Shown: positions 47,456 to 58,065 of the stretch, in pieces
Layout of the letters: every line of letters starts with the position of its first letter
Numbering within the stretch: the first letter of the stretch is position 1
Source: Zobellia alginiliquefaciens
Lineage (GTDB): Bacteria > Bacteroidota > Bacteroidia > Flavobacteriales > Flavobacteriaceae
Direction: 5' to 3'
DNA: 64,000 nucleotides
Assembly: GCF_029323795.1 (NCBI RefSeq)
Contig: NZ_CP119758.1
Location: 62,001 to 126,000, forward strand
The notes under the pieces: generated by a model
What the model saw: only the letters and a program-made list of their open reading frames with translations
What the model was told of the DNA's origin: nothing
The model's database searches: none
Translations under genes and position numbers: made by a program

Positions 47456-49228
47456 ATGCAGAACGTTACCAGACTATTTGATTTTCCCTATTATCAACTG
47501 GAAAAACATAACCTACAGAAATCTCTTGTCTCAAAATATGAGGGCCAGTGGGTTAGCACTTCTACTAAAGAGTATATTGACAAAGCAAATACTATAAGCA
47601 GAGGTCTCTTACGATTGGGTGTACAGCCTAACGATAAAATTGCCGTTATTTCATTGACCAACCGTACGGAATGGAACATTATGGATATTGGTATTCTTCA
47701 ATTAGGCGCACAAAACGTTCCCGTATACCCTACCATATCAGAAGAAGATTATGCGTATGTATTAAATCATTCTGAAGCAAAATTCTGTTTTGTTTCATGT
47801 ATTGAAGTATATGAAAAAGTAAAATCCGTTGAAGACCAGATACCAAGTTTGCAGCACATTTATTCTTTTGATGATATTTCTAGTTGTGATAATTGGGAAA
47901 AGGTACTGGAATTAGGAGCTGATAAATCTAATCAAGACGAAGTTGAAAAACTAAAAGATGCGGTCAAGGCTGATGACCTTGCTACCTTAATATATACTTC
48001 TGGAACAACGGGAAGACCAAAAGGTGTAATGTTATCTCACAATAATTTGGTTAGCAATGCTTTGGAAAGCTCCAAACGTTTCCCTATTGAAGACGGCAAT
48101 ACTAAAGCCCTTAGTTTTCTACCCTTGTGCCATGTATATGAGCGTATGTTAATTTATCTATACCAATACAGAGGTGTAACCATTTACTATGCCGAGTCAT
48201 TGGATAAAATTAGTGACAACCTAAAAGAAACCAGTCCGCATGTTATGACAGCCGTACCAAGGCTTTTAGAAAAAGTCTATGATAAAATATATGCCAAGGG
48301 CACCGAGCTTTCCGGTATAAAGAAAAAACTTTTCTTTTGGGCCGTAAACCTTGGACTTAAATTTGAGCCCTATGGACAAAACGGTTGGTGGTACGAAACA
48401 CAATTATCCATAGCCAGAAAACTTATTTTCAGCAAATGGAAAGAAGGTCTAGGTGGCAACCTTAGTCTTATTGCTTCTGGTAGTGCAGCCTTGCAACCCC
48501 GACTTTCACGCATATTTAATGCCGCTGAATTCGGTCTTATGGAAGGTTATGGTCTCTCAGAGACCTCACCGGTAATATCAGTTAACGACATGCGCGATGA
48601 AGGGTTCCGTATTGGCACTGTGGGCAAACCTATTGATAGAACCGAAGTAAAAATTGCCAGTGACGGAGAAATCTGTATAAAAGGCCCACAGGTCATGATG
48701 GGGTATTATAAGGACCCCGACAAAACCAGCGAAGTTATGCAAGATGGCTATTTCCTTACCGGTGATATTGGTGAAATAGATGCAGACGGATTTCTAAAAA
48801 TTACGGACCGCAAAAAAGAAATGTTCAAAACCTCTGGAGGTAAATATGTAGCGCCTCAGTTATTGGAAAACAGGTTTAAGCAATCTCGCTTTATTGAGCA
48901 AATTATGGTAGTTGGTGAAGGTGAAAAGATGCCGGCCGCTTTAATTCAACCAGATTTTGATTTCTTGCACCAATGGGCAACAAAGAACAACATTACCGTA
49001 CCCGAGAATTCTGATATTATTCAAAACGAACAGGTAATGGCTCGCTACCAACAAGAAGTTGATGAAGCCAATGAAAAATTTGCCAAATGGGAAAAGGTAA
49101 AACAGTTCCGTCTAACTCCGGATGTTTGGAGTATAAGTGAAGGACACCTTACCCCTACCCTTAAATTGCGTCGTAAGATTGTAAAAGAAAAATATATGCA
49201 TCTTTATAACGACATTTATGGGCGCTAA
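47456..49228 (+). CDS. Long-chain fatty acid-CoA ligase
   Basis: The 590-residue protein is an adenylate-forming enzyme of the FAA1/FadD type. IYTSGTTGRPKGVMLSHNN is near residue 179, EGYGLSETSPVISVND near 363, GYFLTGDIGEIDADGF near 430, and TDRKKEMFKTSGGKYVAPQ near 450. It activates long-chain fatty acids with ATP and CoA at the membrane. It is the first gene of a set with MarR, fadN, fadA and fadE, so it most likely feeds beta-oxidation. It is separated from marR by 186 bases that hold the marR promoter and palindrome. Confidence 0.92.
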   Translation: MQNVTRLFDFPYYQLEKHNLQKSLVSKYEGQWVSTSTKEYIDKANTISRGLLRLGVQPNDKIAVISLTNRTEWNIMDIGILQLGAQNVPVYPTISEEDYAYVLNHSEAKFCFVSCIEVYEKVKSVEDQIPSLQHIYSFDDISSCDNWEKVLELGADKSNQDEVEKLKDAVKADDLATLIYTSGTTGRPKGVMLSHNNLVSNALESSKRFPIEDGNTKALSFLPLCHVYERMLIYLYQYRGVTIYYAESLDKISDNLKETSPHVMTAVPRLLEKVYDKIYAKGTELSGIKKKLFFWAVNLGLKFEPYGQNGWWYETQLSIARKLIFSKWKEGLGGNLSLIASGSAALQPRLSRIFNAAEFGLMEGYGLSETSPVISVNDMRDEGFRIGTVGKPIDRTEVKIASDGEICIKGPQVMMGYYKDPDKTSEVMQDGYFLTGDIGEIDADGFLKITDRKKEMFKTSGGKYVAPQLLENRFKQSRFIEQIMVVGEGEKMPAALIQPDFDFLHQWATKNNITVPENSDIIQNEQVMARYQQEVDEANEKFAKWEKVKQFRLTPDVWSISEGHLTPTLKLRRKIVKEKYMHLYNDIYGR

Positions 49229-49349
49229 TAATGCCGCTTACATTTGTCGTACATTTCAACGTAAAATATTATTTTCCTAAAAAAAGTCCTCACAACCTAC
49301 GAATAAAGCTATTTCTTTATAATAGCATTGCTTTTCTGATTTAAATTTC

Positions 49350-49391
49350 AAAAATATATTATGCATGCATAATATATTTTTTGTATATTTG
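49350..49391 (+). promoter_or_regulatory. 32-bp perfect palindromic operator and -7 box in front of marR
   Basis: Bases 49350-49381 form a perfect 32-bp palindrome; each half reads AAAAATATATTATGCA toward the centre at 49365/49366. The -7 box TATATTTG (49384-49391) starts two bases behind it, 24 bases before the marR start. A MarR dimer on this site would block the promoter, so self-control and control of the fad genes downstream is the simple reading. No second copy of the core TTATGCATGCATAA was found in this window. Confidence 0.8.
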
Positions 49392-49414
49392 GTGACCGTC
49401 AACCCACCTTATGT

Positions 49415-49897
49415 ATGAAAGATATTACTATAGACTACGCATTGCGAGCCACATGGCAAGCCGTAGCTCGTATGTACAACGAAGAGGCTAAAAAATTTGA
49501 CTCTACCATGGCCGTGGGTTTTACACTTTTAAGTGTAGATCCTAAGACCGGAACCCCTTCTACGGCCCTTGGGCCCAAAATGGGAATGGAAGCCACAAGC
49601 CTGTCCCGTATTCTAAAAAGAATGGAAGAACAGGGTTTAATAGAGAGAAAACCCAACCCTAAAGACGGAAGAGGCGTTTTGATTTATTTGACGGAATTTG
49701 GACTCGAAAAGAGAAATGATTCAAAGAATGTTGTATTAAGGTTCAACGATTCCGTAAGAAGCCATGTTTCCGAAGAAAAAATAAAAAGCTTTTTTGAGGT
49801 CATGGATACTATAAATGAACTCATAGCAGAAAAGAACATATATACTAATGATAACCTGATTAACGGTCAAGATACCCTTGATTCTGAAACAGATTAA
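49415..49897 (+). CDS. MarR family transcriptional regulator
   Basis: The 160-residue protein has a winged-helix domain with LGPKMGMEATSLSRILKRME (recognition helix, about residues 48-67), then EQGLIERKPNPKDGRGVLIY, the wing, and helices for dimer contact at both ends. Such proteins are usually repressors released by a small ligand. The position between an acyl-CoA ligase and fadNAE, plus the palindrome over its promoter, suggests that fatty acids or acyl-CoA are the signal. Ligand and targets are inferred. Confidence 0.9.
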   Translation: MKDITIDYALRATWQAVARMYNEEAKKFDSTMAVGFTLLSVDPKTGTPSTALGPKMGMEATSLSRILKRMEEQGLIERKPNPKDGRGVLIYLTEFGLEKRNDSKNVVLRFNDSVRSHVSEEKIKSFFEVMDTINELIAEKNIYTNDNLINGQDTLDSETD

Positions 49898-49919
49898 TTA
49901 ATAACCCAATAACTACATC

Positions 49920-52325
49920 GTGAACAAGCATATTAAAAAAGTAGCAGTCATCGGATCCGGAATTATGGGTAGCGGCATTGCTTGCCATTTCGCAAATATC
50001 GGAGTAGAAGTGTTGTTGCTAGATATCGTTCCAAGAGAATTGAACGATAAAGAAAAAGCAAAAGGATTAACTCTAGAAGACAAGGCGGTGCGCAATCGGT
50101 TGGTAAACGACTCATTAACTACGGCCTTAAAATCTAAACCTTCTCCTATCTATCATCAAAAATTCGCTTCGCGTATCTCCACTGGAAATCTTGAGGATGA
50201 TATTGCAAAAGTGAGCAAGGTAGATTGGATTATTGAAGTGGTTGTAGAACGTCTTGATATCAAGAAAAAGGTTTTTGAAAATCTTGAAAAACACCGTACT
50301 CCAGGTACTTTAATCACGTCTAACACTTCTGGTATTCCTATTAAGTTTATGTCAGAAGGTAGAAGTGACGATTTTCAGAAGCATTTCTGTGGAACACATT
50401 TCTTTAACCCAGCGCGTTACTTAAAATTGTTCGAAATTATTCCTGGTCCGGAAACATCGCAAGAAGTACTTGACTTTTTAAATGGCTACGGAGAACAGTT
50501 TTTAGGAAAGACTTCCGTTGTAGCCAAAGACACTCCTGCTTTTATAGGAAACCGAATCGGAATCTTCAGTATTCAAAGCCTCTTTCACACCGTAAAAGAT
50601 ATGGGCATGACCGTTGAAGAGGTTGATAAGCTTACCGGACCTGTAATTGGCAGACCTAAATCCGCCACTTTTAGAACGGTTGATGTTGTAGGCCTGGATA
50701 CTTTGGTTCATGTGGCTAATGGTATCCACGAAAATTGCAAGGATGATGAACGATTAGCACTTTTTGAGCTTCCTGATTTCATCAATACCATGATGGAAAA
50801 CAAATGGCTGGGAAGCAAGACTGGGCAAGGTTTTTATAAGAAGACAAAAAACAAAGAAGGGAAAACGGAAATACTCACGTTGGATTTGGACACCATGGAC
50901 TATCGTTCCAAGAAAAGTGCCAAATTCGCCACACTGGAGCTTACCAAAACCATAGATAAGGTAGTAGACCGTTTTGCTGTTCTGGTTGGAGGAAAAGATA
51001 AAGCCGGAGAGTTCTACAGAAAAAGTTTTGGACAACTATTCGCTTACGTATCACACAGGATTCCTGAAATAACGGATGAACTATATAAGATTGATGACGC
51101 CATGAAAGCCGGTTTTGGCTGGGAACATGGACCATTCCAAATTTGGGATGCCGTTGGGTTGGACAAAGGATTGGAGTTTATTAAAGCCGAAGGATTGGAA
51201 GCTGCCCCTTGGGTAACAGACATGAAGACTTCGGGAAATGAATCTTTCTACTCTATAAAAGATGGGGCTACCTATTTCTATGACATTCCAAAGAAGTCCA
51301 TGGAAAAAATACCAGGTCAGGATGCTTTTATCATTTTGGACAATATCAGAAAATCAAAAGAAGTATTTAAAAATAGTGGTGTTGTAGTTGAGGATTTGGG
51401 CGATGGCATTTTAAATGTGGAGTTCCAATCCAAGATGAACACTATTGGCGGTGATGTTCTTGCCGGCCTTAACAAAGCTATTGATTTAGCTGAAAAAGAC
51501 TTTCAAGGTTTGGTGGTTGGTAACCAAGCAGCAAACTTCTCTGTAGGTGCCAATATTGGTATGATTTTCATGATGGCCGTTGAGCAGGAATATGATGAGC
51601 TTAATATGGCTATTAAAATGTTTCAGGATACGATGATGCGTATGCGCTACTCGGCTATTCCTACCGTTTCCGCACCCCACGGCATGACCCTTGGTGGTGG
51701 TTGTGAGCTATCCCTACATGCGGATAAAGTGGTTGCTGCTGCAGAAACTTACATCGGTCTTGTTGAATTCGGGGTTGGGGTTATCCCTGGTGGTGGTGGT
51801 TCTAAAGAGTTTGCCGTTCGAGCTCAGGACACCTTTAAAAAGAACGATGTTGAATTAAACGTACTTCAAGAATATTTCTTGACCATTGGTATGGCCAAAG
51901 TATCCACATCTGCTTACGAAGCTTATGATTTAGGTATTCTTCAACACGGAAAAGATATCGCAGTCGTAAATAAAGATCGGCAGATTGCAACCGCAAAGGC
52001 ACACGCTAAATTAATGGCCGAGGCCGGATATACACAACCTGTAAAGCGAAGTGATATAAAAGTACTCGGAAAACAAGCGTTAGGTATGTTCTTGGTAGGT
52101 ACGGATTCTATGGAAGCAAGTCACTACATCAGCGAGCACGATAAGAAAATCGCCAATAAATTGGCTTACGTTATGGCTGGTGGAGATTTATCCGAACCGA
52201 CCATGGTAAATGAGCAATATCTATTGGATTTGGAAAGAGAGGCCTTTTTATCTCTTTGTACGGAGAGAAAGACGCTAGAGCGTATCCAACATATGTTAAA
52301 GACAGGTAAACCTTTAAGAAACTAG
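49920..52325 (+). CDS. fadN: 3-hydroxyacyl-CoA dehydrogenase / enoyl-CoA hydratase, FadN type
   Basis: The 801-residue protein starts at GTG. The dehydrogenase is N-terminal, with the NAD loop GSGIMGSGIACHFAN at residues 13-27 and CGTHFFNPARY near 158. The hydratase is C-terminal (about 480-700), with GMTLGGGCELSLHAD near 589 and GVIPGGGGSKEF near 621. This is the reverse order of E. coli FadB/FadJ and equals Bacillus FadN (789 residues). It carries out hydration and oxidation in beta-oxidation. It lies 22 bases behind marR. Confidence 0.93.
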   Translation: MNKHIKKVAVIGSGIMGSGIACHFANIGVEVLLLDIVPRELNDKEKAKGLTLEDKAVRNRLVNDSLTTALKSKPSPIYHQKFASRISTGNLEDDIAKVSKVDWIIEVVVERLDIKKKVFENLEKHRTPGTLITSNTSGIPIKFMSEGRSDDFQKHFCGTHFFNPARYLKLFEIIPGPETSQEVLDFLNGYGEQFLGKTSVVAKDTPAFIGNRIGIFSIQSLFHTVKDMGMTVEEVDKLTGPVIGRPKSATFRTVDVVGLDTLVHVANGIHENCKDDERLALFELPDFINTMMENKWLGSKTGQGFYKKTKNKEGKTEILTLDLDTMDYRSKKSAKFATLELTKTIDKVVDRFAVLVGGKDKAGEFYRKSFGQLFAYVSHRIPEITDELYKIDDAMKAGFGWEHGPFQIWDAVGLDKGLEFIKAEGLEAAPWVTDMKTSGNESFYSIKDGATYFYDIPKKSMEKIPGQDAFIILDNIRKSKEVFKNSGVVVEDLGDGILNVEFQSKMNTIGGDVLAGLNKAIDLAEKDFQGLVVGNQAANFSVGANIGMIFMMAVEQEYDELNMAIKMFQDTMMRMRYSAIPTVSAPHGMTLGGGCELSLHADKVVAAAETYIGLVEFGVGVIPGGGGSKEFAVRAQDTFKKNDVELNVLQEYFLTIGMAKVSTSAYEAYDLGILQHGKDIAVVNKDRQIATAKAHAKLMAEAGYTQPVKRSDIKVLGKQALGMFLVGTDSMEASHYISEHDKKIANKLAYVMAGGDLSEPTMVNEQYLLDLEREAFLSLCTERKTLERIQHMLKTGKPLRN

Positions 52326-52330
52326 GGTTT

Positions 52331-52354
52331 AGTATTGAGATATTAGTATTGAGT
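52331..52354 (+). repeat. Left inverted repeat of four-helix-bundle element 1
   Basis: AGTATTGAGATATTAGTATT begins the 24-base left arm, which pairs with 52715-52738 at 20 of 24 positions. The arm has two copies of AGTATTGAG. It starts 5 bases behind the fadN stop. Confidence 0.7.
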
Positions 52355-52364
52355 AGTTAGAGAA

Positions 52365-52713
52365 ATGCACAAAGTAGAAAATTTAAAAATATGGAATAAG
52401 GCTATTGAGTTAGCCAAGTCCATTTATCTACTGGCAGCTGAATTACCTTCTGAAGAAAAATACGGACTAATTTCTCAAATTAAAAGATGTTCTGTTTCAA
52501 TTCCCTCCAATATAGCCGAAGGGAGCTGGCAGAAACTCTCAAAAAGAGTTTAAATATTTTCTGAGTATCGCTAATGGTTCTGCATATGAACTACACACGC
52601 AACTCATACTTTTAATAGAATTAAACTTAGTAAAAAAAGAAAAAGTAAAACCCGTAATTGAGGTTTGTGTTGAAATTCAAAAAATGAACTATTCGTTTCA
52701 AAAAGCATTATGA
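52365..52713 (+). pseudogene. Four-helix-bundle protein gene (23S rRNA IVP family), frameshifted
   Basis: The reading starts MHKVENLKIWNKAIELAKSI and holds the family hallmark QIKRCSVSIPSNIAEG. Right after it, at GGG (52521-52523), one extra base shifts the frame and stops the protein at residue 62. In the +1 frame the missing part is intact: AGRNSQKEFKYFLSIANGSA, then YELHTQLILLIELNLV and a C-terminal NYSFQKAL. The full protein would be about 115 residues, normal for the family. It lies between fadN and fadA on the same strand and is flanked by inverted repeats. Family role in 23S rRNA intervening sequences is known; function here is unknown. Confidence 0.85.
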
Positions 52714-52714
52714 A

Positions 52715-52738
52715 TCTCAATACAATTAACTCAATACT
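52715..52738 (+). repeat. Right inverted repeat of four-helix-bundle element 1
   Basis: TCTCAATACAATTAACTCAA begins the right arm, directly behind the TGA of the four-helix-bundle gene. A further CTCAATAC copy follows to 52746. It can form a stem with 52331-52354 that encloses the whole gene. Confidence 0.7.
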
Positions 52739-52753
52739 CAATACAATTTTATA

Positions 52754-53944
52754 ATGAAAACTGCATATATAGTTAAAGCATACAGAACAGCTGTCGGAAA
52801 AGCTCCGAAAGGTGTTTTCAGGTTTAAGCGAACAGATGAACTCGCCGCAGAAACCATTGAGTACATGATGAAAGAATTACCCGATTTTGACAAAAAACGG
52901 ATTGATGATGTCATCGTAGGCAACGCCATGCCAGAAGGATCGCAAGGCCTGAATATGGCACGATTGATTTCTTTAATGGGATTGGATATCGTTGATGTAC
53001 CTGGCGTTACGGTGAACCGTTTTTGCTCCTCAGGTATTGAAACCATTGGTATTGCCACGGCAAAAATACAATCGGGAATGGCTGACTGTATCATTGCCGG
53101 TGGTGCAGAAAGTATGAGCTCTGTACCTATGACAGGATATAAAACCGAATTGAATTATGATTTGGTAAGCGAAGGTCACGAAGATTACTATTGGGGTATG
53201 GGAAACACTGCCGAAGCGGTAGCAAATGAATACAAAGTCTCTAGAGAAGACCAAGATGAGTTTGCATATAATTCTCATATGAAAGCTTTAAAAGCACAAG
53301 CTGAAGACCGTTTTCAAAATCAAATCGTGCCTATTGAAGTAGAGCAAACCTACATTGATGAAAACGGTAAAAAAGCAACAAAAAAGTATACGGTAACTAA
53401 AGATGAAGGTCCTAGAAAGGGCACTTCGGTAGAAGTGCTAAATAAACTACGTCCTGTTTTTGCAGCTGGCGGTAGCGTAACTGCAGGTAATTCATCTCAA
53501 ATGAGCGATGGTGCTGCTTTTGTAATGGTAATGAGCGAAGATATGGTGAAAGAGTTGAATCTGGAGCCTATTGCCCGTTTGGTAAATTATGCAGCTGCCG
53601 GTGTCCCTCCAAGAATTATGGGTATAGGTCCTGTTGCGGCTATTCCAAAAGCTCTAAAACAAGCAGGATTAAAGCAAGATGATATTGAACTTATTGAACT
53701 GAATGAGGCATTCGCTTCGCAATCACTAGCAGTAATTCGTGAACTTGGTCTAAACAAAGATATTGTAAACGTAAATGGTGGCGCTATTGCATTGGGTCAC
53801 CCATTAGGATGTACAGGAGGTAAACTATCCGTGCAACTGTTCGATGAAATGAGAAAGAGAAACATGCAAGGTAAGTATGGTATGGTAACCATGTGCGTGG
53901 GCACCGGACAAGGGGCTGCGGGTATTTTTGAGTTTCTTTCTTAA
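52754..53944 (+). CDS. fadA: Acetyl-CoA C-acyltransferase (3-ketoacyl-CoA thiolase)
   Basis: The 396-residue thiolase has the acylated cysteine in [12 protein letters not shown] (near residue 92), [11 protein letters not shown] near 317, the histidine in [16 protein letters not shown] near 350, and the second cysteine in [11 protein letters not shown] near 381. It splits 3-ketoacyl-CoA with CoA in the last step of beta-oxidation. The gene order fadN-fadA-fadE equals that of the Bacillus fadNAE operon. It is separated from fadN and fadE by the two four-helix-bundle elements. Confidence 0.95.
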
Positions 53945-53963
53945 GAAGAGAAAAGAAAATAGA
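53945..53963 (+). repeat. Left inverted repeat of four-helix-bundle element 2
   Basis: GAAGAGAAAAGAAAATAGA starts at the base behind the fadA stop. It pairs with 54336-54356 at 17 of 19 positions with a two-base bulge. The sequence differs wholly from the arms of element 1. Confidence 0.6.
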
Positions 53964-53974
53964 ATAAGGACTGA

Positions 53975-54332
53975 ATGGCTAAGCGTCATAACTATAAGAA
54001 TTTAAAAATTTGGAAACTGGGTTTGGAAATTGCTAATGACATTTCTGATCTATTATATAAGTTTTCCAAAGCATGAAAGATTCGATTTAAGTTCGCAAAT
54101 GAGTAGGTGCTCCATTTCAATTCCAAGCAACATTGCGGAAGGATCTGCTAGAACTGATAAATCATTTAGCCATTTTATTAATATCTCTTTGGGTTCTTCC
54201 TTTGAATTAGGAACACAATTATTAATTGCCAAGAATAGAAAGTATATAACCGATAATAAATTAAAACTACTTGAAGATAAAATAGAAGAATTTCAGAAAA
54301 TGACTATGAGTTTTCAAAATAGTCTTTCGTAA
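53975..54332 (+). pseudogene. Second four-helix-bundle protein gene (IVP family), frameshifted
   Basis: The reading starts MAKRHNYKNLKIWKLGLEIA and reaches DLLYKF, where one extra T in TTTT (54062-54065) shifts the frame and stops the product at residue 33. The other frame carries the rest intact: PKHERFDLSSQMSRCSISIP, SNIAEGSARTDKSF, SSFELGTQLLIA and SFQNSLS. The restored protein would be about 118 residues. It shares NLKIW, the RCS-SIPSNIAEG core and EL-TQL with the gene at 52365 but is clearly diverged, so the two are not a recent duplication. It lies between fadA and fadE. Confidence 0.85.
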
Positions 54333-54335
54333 ATC

Positions 54336-54356
54336 TCTTTTCTCTTTTCTAACTTC
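54336..54356 (+). repeat. Right inverted repeat of four-helix-bundle element 2
   Basis: TCTTTTCTCTTTTCTAACTTC lies 3 bases behind the stop of the four-helix-bundle gene. It is the pyrimidine-rich partner of the purine-rich arm at 53945-53963. Confidence 0.6.
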
Positions 54357-54373
54357 TAAATACTATTAATAAC

Positions 54374-56185
54374 ATGAGTACAGAATCAACAAATAAAGAA
54401 ATTCTACGAGGCGGCCAATTCCTTGTCAAGGAAACCAATTGCGAGGACATCTTCACTTTAGAAGATTTGAACGAAGAGCAAAGAATGATGCGTGACAGTA
54501 CCAAAGAGTTCGTTGATCGCGAACTTTGGGCGCATTGGGAACGTTTTGAAAAAAAGGACTATGCCTATACCGAAGAATGTATGCGCAAAGCCGGCGAACT
54601 AGGTCTTTTAAGTGTGGCCGTTCCAGAATCGTATGGAGGAATGGGTATGGGCTTTGTCTCTACCATGTTAGTTTGTGATTATATTTCAGGGGCAACGGGC
54701 TCTTTTAGTACTGCATTTGGTGCACATACGGGTATTGGGACTATGCCAATAACCTTGTATGGAACGGAAGAGCAAAAACAAAAATATGTTCCAAAATTAG
54801 CTTCAGGTGAATGGTTCGGAGCGTATTGTTTAACAGAGCCCGGTGCCGGTTCGGATGCCAATTCCGGTAAGACCAAAGCTGTACTTTCCGAAGACGGAAA
54901 ACACTATAGTATAACCGGACAAAAAATGTGGATTTCCAATGCTGGCTTCTGTAGCTTGTTTATTGTATTTGCTCGCATTGAGGACGACAAGAACATTACA
55001 GGGTTTATCGTAGAGAACAAACCAGACAATGGTATCTCTCTAGGTGATGAAGAGAAAAAATTAGGTATTCACTCCTCCTCTACTCGCCAAGTATTTTTTA
55101 GCGATACAAAAGTACCAGTTGAAAATATGCTTTCTAAGCGTGGCAATGGCTTCAAAATTGCCATGAATGCTTTGAACGTGGGTCGTATTAAATTGGCTGC
55201 GGCTTGTTTGGATGCACAAAGACGTGTCATCAAAGAAGCTGTTACGTATGCTAATGAGCGCATTCAATTTAAAACACCTATTATGAACTTCGGTGCCATA
55301 AAAGCAAAGATTGCAAATATGGCCACCAATGCCTACGCTGGTGAATCAGCAAGTTACCGTGCCGCAAAAAATATTGAAGACCGTATTGCCATTCGTGAAG
55401 CAGAGGGCAACTCTCACCAAGAAGCAGAACTAAAAGGTGTGGAAGAATACGCCATTGAGTGTTCTATTTTAAAGGTTGCCGTTTCCGAAGACGTTCAAAA
55501 CACAACGGATGAAGGTGTTCAGATTTTTGGAGGAATGGGCTTTAGTGCGGATGCTCCTATGGAAAAGGCCTGGAGAGATGCTAGAATCTCTAGAATATAT
55601 GAAGGCACCAACGAAATTAACCGAATGCTCGTTGTAGGAATGCTTGTTAAAAAAGCCATGAAAGGCCATGTTGACCTATTAGGACCAGCTACTGCTGTTG
55701 GTGAAGAGCTAATGGGAATCCCTTCTTTTGATACACCCGATTTTTCTGAGCTTTTTGCCGAAGAAAAAGATTTAATTAAGCGATTGAAAAAAGTATTCTT
55801 AATGGTTGCTGGTAGTGCCGTACAGAAATATGGTCCTGAATTAGAAAAACATCAGCAACTGATGCTTTCTGCCTCAGATATTCTTATTGAAATTTATATG
55901 GCTGAAAGCACCATTTTAAGAACAGAGAAAAATGCCAAACGTTCTGGTGAAGACTCTCAACAAACGCAAATTGCCATGTCCAAATTGTATTTATACAATG
56001 CTACTGAGACCATCATACAAAAAGGAAAAGAAGCGATTATCTCTTTTGCCGAAGGTGATGAGCAACGTATGATGCTAATGGGCTTGAAACGCTTTACCAA
56101 ATACACAAATAATCCTAATGTAGTTGCTTTACGTACGCAAATAGCGGATAAAGTTGCCGCAGATAACGCATATACTTTTGATTAG
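54374..56185 (+). CDS. fadE: Acyl-CoA dehydrogenase, FadE type
   Basis: The 603-residue flavoprotein shows YCLTEPGAGSDANSGKTKA near residue 155, the FAD-side WISNAGFCSLFIVFARI, RIKLAAACLDAQRRVI, and IFGGMGFSADAPMEKAWRDA with RISRIYEGTNEINR near 400. A C-terminal helical extension is typical of Bacillus FadE (594 residues). It introduces the trans-2 double bond into acyl-CoA and passes electrons to ETF. It ends the fad run and is followed by a terminator. Confidence 0.94.
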   Translation: MSTESTNKEILRGGQFLVKETNCEDIFTLEDLNEEQRMMRDSTKEFVDRELWAHWERFEKKDYAYTEECMRKAGELGLLSVAVPESYGGMGMGFVSTMLVCDYISGATGSFSTAFGAHTGIGTMPITLYGTEEQKQKYVPKLASGEWFGAYCLTEPGAGSDANSGKTKAVLSEDGKHYSITGQKMWISNAGFCSLFIVFARIEDDKNITGFIVENKPDNGISLGDEEKKLGIHSSSTRQVFFSDTKVPVENMLSKRGNGFKIAMNALNVGRIKLAAACLDAQRRVIKEAVTYANERIQFKTPIMNFGAIKAKIANMATNAYAGESASYRAAKNIEDRIAIREAEGNSHQEAELKGVEEYAIECSILKVAVSEDVQNTTDEGVQIFGGMGFSADAPMEKAWRDARISRIYEGTNEINRMLVVGMLVKKAMKGHVDLLGPATAVGEELMGIPSFDTPDFSELFAEEKDLIKRLKKVFLMVAGSAVQKYGPELEKHQQLMLSASDILIEIYMAESTILRTEKNAKRSGEDSQQTQIAMSKLYLYNATETIIQKGKEAIISFAEGDEQRMMLMGLKRFTKYTNNPNVVALRTQIADKVAADNAYTFD

Positions 56186-56211
56186 TATATAATTCAAGTG
56201 TTTGTTATAAC

Positions 56212-56243
56212 AAAAAAACACCCCTGTCGGGGTGTTTTTTTTA
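56212..56243. terminator. Bidirectional terminator between fadE and the GH15 gene
   Basis: AACACCCC and GGGGTGTT pair around TGTC, with seven A before and eight T behind. It ends the fad operon and can also end the convergent GH15 gene. Confidence 0.95.
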
Positions 56244-56262
56244 TATCCTAATTTTCTGAAGT

Positions 56263-58065
56263 TTAACTACGCATAGATTCCCTGATACTCTCTGCACTTT
56301 CTTTTTTAGAGAAATTCACGGCACATTCAATTAAAGCCAAATGTGAATACGCTTGCGGGAAGTTACCCAACAACCTTTTGGTTTTAAAATCTAAATCCTC
56401 ACTGAACAACCCTAAGTGATTACTGTAGCTCAGCAACTTTTCAAATTGTTTTAGCGCTTCGTCATGCTCGCCTATTTTAAACAAACTGTTTACGTACCAA
56501 AATGTACAGACCGTAAAGGAAGATGAAGGCAGACCAAAATCGTCTTCATTCTTATAACGGTATAACAGCCCATCGTTACTCAACTCTTTTCCAATTGCTT
56601 TTACTGTTTTCTTATAACGTTCATCGGAAGCATCTACACAGCCGTAAGACTCCATAAGTAAAACAGATGCATCCAAGTGTTTAGAACCATAGGATTGGGT
56701 GTACGCTCCCACTTCTTCGTTCCATGCATTCTCATAGATATCATTCCAAATTTCTTCACGAAGCGGCTCCCACTTTTCAATTTTATGCTTCTTACCTAAC
56801 ATTTCGGCTACTTTAATAGCTCTATCCAAGGCCGTCCAACATAATACTTTTGAAAAGGTAAAATGTCTATCTTCGGTTCTGAACTCCCATATTCCTTTAT
56901 CGGCTTCTTTCCAGTTGTTTCCTACAATCCAGACAATACCTTTGGTTATGGACCATAAATCTTCGCCATTTTCAATATCTACGCTAAACTTTACCATTTG
57001 TTCGTAGATGACATCCATCAGGATACCATAAATATCATTTTGTTTTTGATGGTACGCCGCATTACCGATACGAACAGGTTTTGACCCCTTATAACCACTT
57101 AAGTGCTCTAGAGTCTCTTCCGTTAGCTTTTTCTCTTTATTGATTCCGTACATGATCTGCAGTTTCTCTGCTTTATCAGGAATAAGGTCTATAATAAACT
57201 TCAGGTAACGGCGAGCTATATTTTTATGTCCCAACTCGGAGACCACTTTTATTACCATAGAAGCATCGCGTATCCAGCAAAAACGATAATCCCAATTACG
57301 GACCTCCCCTATTGTTTCTGGTAATGATGTTGTAGCTGCCGCCAAAACAGCACCAGACTTATCATAGCTTAGTAGCTTTAAAGTAAGTGCGCTACGCGAA
57401 ATCTCTTTGTTGAATTTTTTATATGTAGGAGTCTTGGTTGACCAATTTAACCAGTAGACCTTGGTTTTTTCAAGTTCTAGATACGCCTGGGTCGTTGTGG
57501 GCGTGAATATCTTCTCATTATACCCCATTAGAAAAAAGCCATCTTCGTATAAAGTCAGTTCTTTACCTGCAAGAACATCTTCTTTCTTAAAACTTGTATA
57601 TAGAAAAACAGTATCGAATTTAACCTCATGCGTCAGGCTGGCAATAAAATCCTTTTTCACATAACTTTTGGTTTCACCAGCGGCATATTCTAATCTAGGA
57701 TTATACAGCACCTTAAATTTAGGTTTCCCGGTTATCAATTTTACATACCTTACAAATTCTGGCGGTGCAATATATGTACCGTCATCTTTGCGAAAACGTG
57801 GCATAAAATCATGAATTTCAAAACAATTTTCACCATCATCGAAAGTCGTAATTAAAATACAGGTTTTGGGTTCGTAACTTTGTTCAATCGTATAGTCGTC
57901 ACTCACTAAAAATTCAAAACTGCCCCCTATTTCCTCATCTAATAATTTTCCAAAAACCGAGGGCGAATCAAATTCCGGCAAACAACACCAATCTACGCTT
58001 CCTGTTTTTGATATTAACGCTGCACTTCGGCAATTTCCTATTATTCCGTAGTCTAAATTATCCAT
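56263..58065 (-). CDS. Glycoside hydrolase family 15 protein (glucoamylase/trehalase-like)
   Basis: The 600-residue protein has an N-terminal beta-sandwich (NLDYGIIGNCRSAALISKTG, SVDWCCLPEFDSPSVFG) and an (alpha/alpha)6 barrel with NWDYRFCWIRDASMVIKVV near residue 260. GIWEFRTEDRHFTFSKVLCW near 395 probably carries the general acid, and FPQAYSHLALIECAVN closes it. No signal peptide is visible, so it is cytoplasmic. Some GH15 members hydrolyse trehalose. Being divergent from a trehalose synthase/phosphatase fusion, it may be the matching trehalase, but starch- or glucan-type activity is equally possible from sequence alone. Confidence 0.88.
   Translation of the reverse strand: MDNLDYGIIGNCRSAALISKTGSVDWCCLPEFDSPSVFGKLLDEEIGGSFEFLVSDDYTIEQSYEPKTCILITTFDDGENCFEIHDFMPRFRKDDGTYIAPPEFVRYVKLITGKPKFKVLYNPRLEYAAGETKSYVKKDFIASLTHEVKFDTVFLYTSFKKEDVLAGKELTLYEDGFFLMGYNEKIFTPTTTQAYLELEKTKVYWLNWSTKTPTYKKFNKEISRSALTLKLLSYDKSGAVLAAATTSLPETIGEVRNWDYRFCWIRDASMVIKVVSELGHKNIARRYLKFIIDLIPDKAEKLQIMYGINKEKKLTEETLEHLSGYKGSKPVRIGNAAYHQKQNDIYGILMDVIYEQMVKFSVDIENGEDLWSITKGIVWIVGNNWKEADKGIWEFRTEDRHFTFSKVLCWTALDRAIKVAEMLGKKHKIEKWEPLREEIWNDIYENAWNEEVGAYTQSYGSKHLDASVLLMESYGCVDASDERYKKTVKAIGKELSNDGLLYRYKNEDDFGLPSSSFTVCTFWYVNSLFKIGEHDEALKQFEKLLSYSNHLGLFSEDLDFKTKRLLGNFPQAYSHLALIECAVNFSKKESAESIRESMRS

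Follow-up and report, generated by a model that had tools for sequence, protein, structure and literature searches.

Intervening-sequence-like elements with mirrored heptad arms in the spacers of a fad operon of Zobellia alginiliquefaciens

Both gaps of the fadN-fadA-fadE operon in the window (the whole stretch of 64,000 nucleotides of Zobellia alginiliquefaciens DNA that was analysed) hold a gene of the IVP family enclosed by two arms made of seven-base repeats. We propose, with a probability of roughly 0.6 for this reading as a whole, that each gap carries its own decaying copy of a compact element which moves horizontally and resembles the intervening sequences (IVS) of 23S rRNA, and whose stem would be cut in the mRNA. 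In such an element a G-rich heptad arm and its C-rich mirror enclose a gene that encodes an S23/IVP four-helix-bundle protein, about 115-124 amino acids long. The repeat unit is private to each element and mirrored on its two sides, and the anatomy, the variability and the spread of these loci argue for an IVS-like element that resides in operon spacers. The IVS kind is already known; what is new here is a form that sits between operon genes and has heptamer arms which are mirrored and private to each element.

Two elements in the fad operon

The three fad genes all run in the same direction (Table 1); 5' of them, at 47456-49897 and in this direction too, lie genes for a FadD-like ligase (AMP-binding) and for a regulator of the MarR family. 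A preliminary description had given the lengths of the two gaps and placed an IVP-family gene in each, and both points stand: the gaps measure 428 nt (gap1, between fadN and fadA) and 429 nt (gap2, between fadA and fadE), PF05635 is matched with 72 and 45.8 bits by the two pieces in gap1 and with 94.7 bits by the main piece in gap2 (cut-off 33.8), and the two pieces scanned with TIGR02436 (four helix bundle protein) both lie above its 24-bit cut-off. That description had overlooked that the IVP genes of both elements are split over two frames; intact copies are present in relatives of the genus. The PF05635 search of the genome of the window (G000) gave 8 matches corresponding to 7 genes, and of the other IVP genes of this genome one is interrupted by TGA in frame and another by TAG. 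No Rfam match was obtained over 49400-56400, and neither element lies inside an rRNA gene.

Table 1. Features of the fad operon and of its two elements (positions in the window)
Feature	Position	Strand	Basis
fadN-like 3-hydroxyacyl-CoA dehydrogenase / enoyl-CoA hydratase gene, host gene 5' of gap1	49920..52325	+	
Element 1, left arm, degenerate heptads, units TATTGAG / ATATTAG	52326..52364	+	
Element 1, broken IVP gene, frame one, PF05635 positions 1-53	52365..52553	+	profile match
Element 1, broken IVP gene, frame two, PF05635 positions 54-104, including stop	52537..52713	+	profile match
Element 1, right arm, heptads CTCAATA, complement of left arm	52714..52753	+	
fadA-like thiolase gene, flanked by both elements	52754..53944	+	
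Element 2, left arm, AGAAAAG-type repeats	53945..53974	+	
Element 2, broken IVP gene, frame one, including stop	53975..54076	+	translation
Element 2, broken IVP gene, frame two, PF05635 positions 18-104	54030..54332	+	start is a mechanical ORF call
Element 2, right arm, TCTCTTT heptads, divergent from its counterpart in the intact G005 relative	54333..54373	+	
fadE acyl-CoA dehydrogenase gene, host gene 3' of gap2	54374..56185	+	

The four arms have a 7-nt period, with a lag-7 self-match of 0.47, 0.44, 0.62 and 0.65, although in two of them another lag equals or nearly equals lag 7; the preliminary description had not remarked on this period. The inverted repeats reported around each gene were found again: 52331-52354 and 52715-52738 form 20 of 24 Watson-Crick pairs, and 53945-53963 and 54336-54356 form 17 of 19 in a hand count that admits a 2-nt bulge (11 of 19 without a gap). 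The expectation of a stable stem held for gap1 only, where the duplex is stronger than in dinucleotide shuffles (z -3.1, p 0.0065), but not for gap2 (z -0.8, p 0.19); folding of the whole gaps divided them in the same way (z -2.93 and z +0.27), with the end arms paired in both minimum-energy structures. The weakness of the gap2 stem in G000 (-14.4 kcal/mol) had not been noticed before. In the intact gap2 relative of G005 the stem, with an uninterrupted core of 17 bp, reaches -23.7 kcal/mol, a value that base shuffles rarely equal (p 0.003), and the left arm of G000 can be paired with the right arm of G005 at -23.2 kcal/mol. Since the left arm of G000 still fits the right arm of G005, and the stem of G005 is strong, we read the gap2 stem of G000 as decayed on one side.

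Loci compared and tests

IVP loci were collected in two sets. The family set holds 137 loci of the genus and the family, namely 110 of the best-scoring places among the matches listed and 27 matches from the own genome and the genus; the two elements of the window were left out of it, as were L065 and L069, which are split copies. The named set holds 84 loci. Four of them come from cyanobacterial plasmids, the others from genome contigs of several phyla, where they are the best 80 of 587 confirmed. The resulting 221 loci fall into 101 site clusters, of which 75 contain a single locus. As the fad sites are over-represented (51 of the 221 loci at fadN-fadA and 19 at fadA-fadE) and the counts are not independent, counts with one locus per site are also given. 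Locus L245, which is misframed (6-codon ORF), is included in every count. The strands of neighbouring genes were scored by the longest ORF, and the genus was compared in nine genomes, G000-G008.

A heptad window is a 35-nt stretch of the flank in which lag 7 gives 20 or more matches, or 23 or more of 35 in the stricter version. As a control, spacers with a length of 45-800 nt were sampled in 464 kb of G000 and in 400 kb of genome G107; at the stricter threshold their shuffles gave 0 and 0.6.

Heptad arms across relatives

The self-match of the left flank in the family set peaks at lags 7, 14 and 21 (0.425, 0.379 and 0.367, with shuffles at about 0.30) and rises less at lag 8 (0.337); the lag-7 value of the named set, 0.416, is similar. 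Heptad windows were found at 152 of the 221 loci versus 5 in shuffles, and when every other lag between 4 and 12 was examined in the same way, the criterion was passed by 29 loci at lag 8 and by no more than 8 at any of the rest. With one locus per site, about 61 of 101 sites have lag-7 windows and about 16 have lag-8 windows. Under the stricter version 86 of the 221 IVP loci pass, versus 1 of 221 sampled spacers of G000 and 5 of 181 of G107, and a strict array detector returned a single lag-7 array in 400 kb of each of these two genomes and none in the window.

It had been anticipated that the proposal would fall if most relatives carried the gene at conserved places without inverted repeats. 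Inverted pairing is significant (p<=0.05) at 138 of the 221 loci, or about 62 of 101 with one locus per site, so that relatives without it are not the majority; direct pairing reaches this level at 37 loci. Either a heptad window or inverted pairing is present at 184 of 221 loci, and the 37 with neither feature include L002 and L006 of G000. The duplex energy of the arms as RNA is a weaker test: its median z over the 221 loci is -1.76, with p<=0.01 in 65 and p<=0.05 in 102, and none of the five other loci of G000 is significant at 0.05 (L002 has p 0.07).

When 11 further plasmid loci are added (232 in all), the threshold is passed by 129 arrays on the left side and by 129 on the right. Left arrays are mostly G-rich (112 of 129) and right arrays mostly C-rich (118 of 129), and the 103 left units containing AG fall into as many as 78 distinct AG-rotated words. 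Despite this diversity, the left unit and the complement of the right unit differ in at most one of 7 bases at 46 of the 85 loci with two arrays, as compared with 4.8% of cross pairs. The same was found within single sites, where the match between the arms of one element was compared with foreign arms in 2000 permutations: it is 25.7 against 19.4 +- 0.8 (maximum 22.2) at fadN-fadA and 24.9 against 17.1 +- 1.1 (maximum 21.2) at fadA-fadE. Own pairing thus exceeds all 2000 permutations at both gaps, which indicates that the left and the right arm change together. Across sites, arm similarity grows with protein identity, a score of 24 being reached by 3% of the pairs at 35-45% identity and by 34% of the 61 cross-site pairs above 65%.

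Of 13 loci on cyanobacterial plasmids, 9 have inverted pairing at p<=0.05 against base shuffles, five of these with clear heptads on both sides (L260, L322, L325, L326 and L329); L330 has an 8-nt period instead, L327 has p 0.07, and L261 has neither inverted nor direct heptads. At L262 and L263 the heptads flanking the IVP gene are direct, not inverted. The Gemmatirosa locus L332 has neither arm feature, and the arms of L248, L231 and L257 appear by eye to be tandem units of nine bases rather than seven.

Place and orientation

IVP genes lie in the sense direction between co-directional genes at 126 of the 137 loci of the family set, or at about 52 of 59 clusters with one per site; the other 11 have convergent or divergent neighbours, and none is antisense. 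In the named set 68 of the 80 scorable loci are sense between co-directional genes, 3 are antisense and 9 are placed otherwise (4 were set aside). Co-directional spacers make up 146 of the 221 background spacers sampled in G000 and 111 of the 181 in G107. The preliminary description had presented the element within the fad operon; the element is not specific to fad. The three antisense loci between co-directional genes are L228, L260 and L261, and the hosts of the last two are genes for the beta and alpha subunits of ribonucleotide reductase in Nostoc and secretion genes in Calothrix.

Some IVP genes of cyanobacterial plasmids stand between consecutive CRISPR genes, twice between cas6 and cas4 and once between cas10 and cmr3 (L262, L323 and L330). 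An excerpt of a CRISPR survey has '23S rRNA IVP' in its list (PMC10910872), and IVP genes in such places may be the reason for this entry.

The IVP protein

The IVP gene of gap1 in G006, when compared with each of the three other intact gap1 genes (G003, G004 and G005), has a dN/dS of 0.06-0.08, and among these three the ratio is 0.78-1.04, on 4 to 9 changes. Over longer distances, therefore, the IVP ORF is under purifying selection. In PDB, a profile built from 12 relatives hits 2gsc (E 6.9e-37) and 2rld (5.7e-16), each with five chains, and an excerpt of PMC4990558 describes the protein of Xanthomonas as a homopentamer.

Two other identities were considered. None of 12 relatives matched the PADLOC anti-phage models at E 0.001. 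The accessory protein Avd of diversity-generating retroelements (DGR) was rejected, as the main piece of gap2 scored 28.9 bits with bAvd (cut-off 40) and 20.9 bits with Avd NF033474 (cut-off 80).

Gain, loss and spread

Within the genus, gap1 is empty (a 4-nt spacer) in G001, G002 and G007, holds a gene-less hairpin in G008 and is occupied in five genomes, of which G000 alone has a broken gene. Only G000 and G005 have the element in gap2, which is empty in the remaining seven of the nine genomes. Considering 37 fadA loci (9 of the genus and 28 others of the family), an IVP gene is present in gap1 in 9 and absent in 28, and present in gap2 in 7, six of which were found by regular expression and one (L028) by eye. 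A spacer which we name argE-argH holds an IVP gene in five genomes and heptad hairpins in G001, G003 and G004; upstream of argH in G002 neither gene nor heptad hairpin is visible by eye. Between groES and groEL the IVP gene occurs in G000 alone of the nine genomes. There (L265) the spacer is replaced by the IVP element, and the other eight genomes (L264 and L266-L272) have by eye a common spacer that is unrelated to it, measures about 100-120 nt and contains small hairpins.

Measured in 100-nt windows, G003, G004 and G005 share 95-100% identity across the gap1 element, as against 76-97% in the coding windows on either side, and identity is slightly higher within the 100-200 nt beside the element. 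The flanks of G003 and G007 are about 97% alike, yet only G003 has the element in gap1. The near-identical copies could result from ordinary recombination of short tracts. Empty and occupied spacers, compared by eye, differ along most of their length, with no target duplication seen, and no transposase or movement mechanism was found.

Hairpins without a gene bear on a second explanation, in which the arms act on DNA as ends for recombination or replication, by which the element or a hairpin made of arms alone would be copied or exchanged, and RNA pairing is incidental. Of the 28 fadN-fadA spacers without the gene, 13 are 70-141 nt long, and 7 of these 13 pass the tests for both hairpin (p<=0.05) and heptads (lag-7 self-match of at least 0.48), as does 1 of 11 gene-less fadA-fadE spacers tested, with thresholds that were set after seeing the data. 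These spacers, the argE-argH hairpins, the rise of arm similarity with protein identity across sites and the existence of antisense copies speak for arms that work on DNA. However, the sense bias in operon gaps and a relative located in 23S rRNA (see below) better fit a role in RNA, and no enzyme for such a process was found, so we regard this explanation as unlikely.

It could also be supposed that the IVP gene is an ordinary operon gene of Bacteroidota, vertically kept, with a hairpin on each side that tunes the expression of fadN, fadA and fadE. The large share of the two fad sites in the sample, the signature of purifying selection in the comparison of G006 with the other intact gap1 copies, and the unit TATTGAG, which by eye is common to many gap1 elements of different genera, are in line with vertical inheritance. 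A kept gene, on the other hand, is hard to reconcile with 101 site clusters that are mostly single loci, with its absence from 28 of 37 fadN-fadA gaps and, within the genus, from gap1 of three genomes and gap2 of seven, with its broken state in G000 and with near-identical copies in diverged flanks elsewhere; we consider this reading quite improbable.

Long heptamer arrays without an IVP gene

For each of two perfect heptamer patterns 120 family genomes were scanned, with occurrences in 13 genomes for one pattern and in 4 for the other; of the at least 23 distinct arrays listed, 20 were examined (19 loci and L300). An IVP profile match within about 3 kb was obtained for none of the 20, with the three positive controls detected, and an inverted partner above the shuffle maximum was present at two (L382 and L300). 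The notion that tandem heptamers are, as a rule, arms of IVP elements is therefore not supported for long perfect arrays. Long arrays of this kind include L300 (contig C1 of G000, near 4714158), L365, L363, L366 and L343. Counted on stop-to-stop ORFs, eleven of the 20 start within about 20 nt of the end of a gene, with the G-rich strand being the coding strand of that gene, and the polarity of these eleven is that of the left arms of IVP elements.

These arrays would suit an origin of the heptads by polymerase slippage and of the hairpins by template switching, with the IVP gene merely ending up alongside, but the excess of strict heptad windows at IVP loci over sampled spacers and the mirroring of own arms make this very improbable.

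Relation to 23S rRNA intervening sequences and other repeats

The likeness to 23S rRNA IVS drawn in the preliminary description is borne out by the shared protein family, by the enclosing inverted arms and by a relative that lies inside 23S rRNA itself. This locus (L331, on a plasmid of Azospirillum lipoferum; RF02541, 2137 bits), the one 23S-located relative read, has inverted heptad arms (p 0.005), while Rfam gave no match on 20 other IVP loci. The heptad arms of the Azospirillum copy tie the operon elements to the classical intervening sequences. According to excerpts of PMC4990558, the IVS of Coxiella has a 28-bp stem that RNase III cuts in vitro, and heptameric repeats, variable in number, lie 5' of its S23p ORF. 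The elements share with 23S IVS the PF05635/TIGR02436 protein, a similar size (428 nt in Coxiella), a sense ORF and complementary enclosing arms; they differ from them because the fad elements are in spacers of a protein-coding operon and not in rRNA, and because a genome has several sites (seven genes in G000). The earlier interpretation thus holds as to IVS likeness, and is refined in that the element is found well beyond fad and that both copies of the window are decaying.

Seven-base units in spacers are also a feature of the tandem intergenic heptamers described in the SPADE survey (PMC6344855), for Xanthomonas and Nostoc (PMC4692102) and as TAACTGA repeats (PMC4679880). Inverted pairs of heptamers number 70 cases in Xcc and 75 in Xac among Xanthomonas, and only few in Nostoc, according to an excerpt of PMC4692102. 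The excerpts of these three open-access papers contain no link of heptamers with IVP, S23 or four helix bundle proteins. Small size, inverted repeats, location in spacers and the existence of gene-less forms recall MITE or REP elements. As a rule, the ends of a MITE are common to its copies. Unlike MITE or IS-type elements, the elements described here have a great variety of left units, and their own arms match better than foreign ones.

Proposed mechanism and implications

The following steps are proposed by analogy with the rRNA case. The element, sitting in the sense direction in spacers of co-directional genes, would live off host transcription as 23S IVS do. In the transcript its arms could pair and form a stem around the ORF, which RNase III, a double-strand RNase, may cut, so that the cistrons would be separated and the IVP message released. 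If stems are cut in this way, insertion in important operons would be tolerable. Cutting of the fad mRNA by RNase III would follow from this scheme; movement by the element's own means and any role of the protein are likewise putative.

As a tentative and rather unlikely extension, these loci might represent a widespread selfish class of IVS-like elements of mRNA, each with a private heptad word, in which the pentamer ring of the IVP reads the array with one heptad per subunit; the element would be cut from mRNA and copied to new spacers, and the gene-less hairpins would be its dependants. If true, this would provide an origin for a part of the unexplained tandem heptamers of bacteria.

Private mirrored heptads frame both the IVP genes of operon spacers and a copy in 23S rRNA. 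If cutting of the stems takes place in mRNA, intervening sequences would exist also in protein-coding operons such as groES-groEL and fad, where they would split transcripts without splicing.
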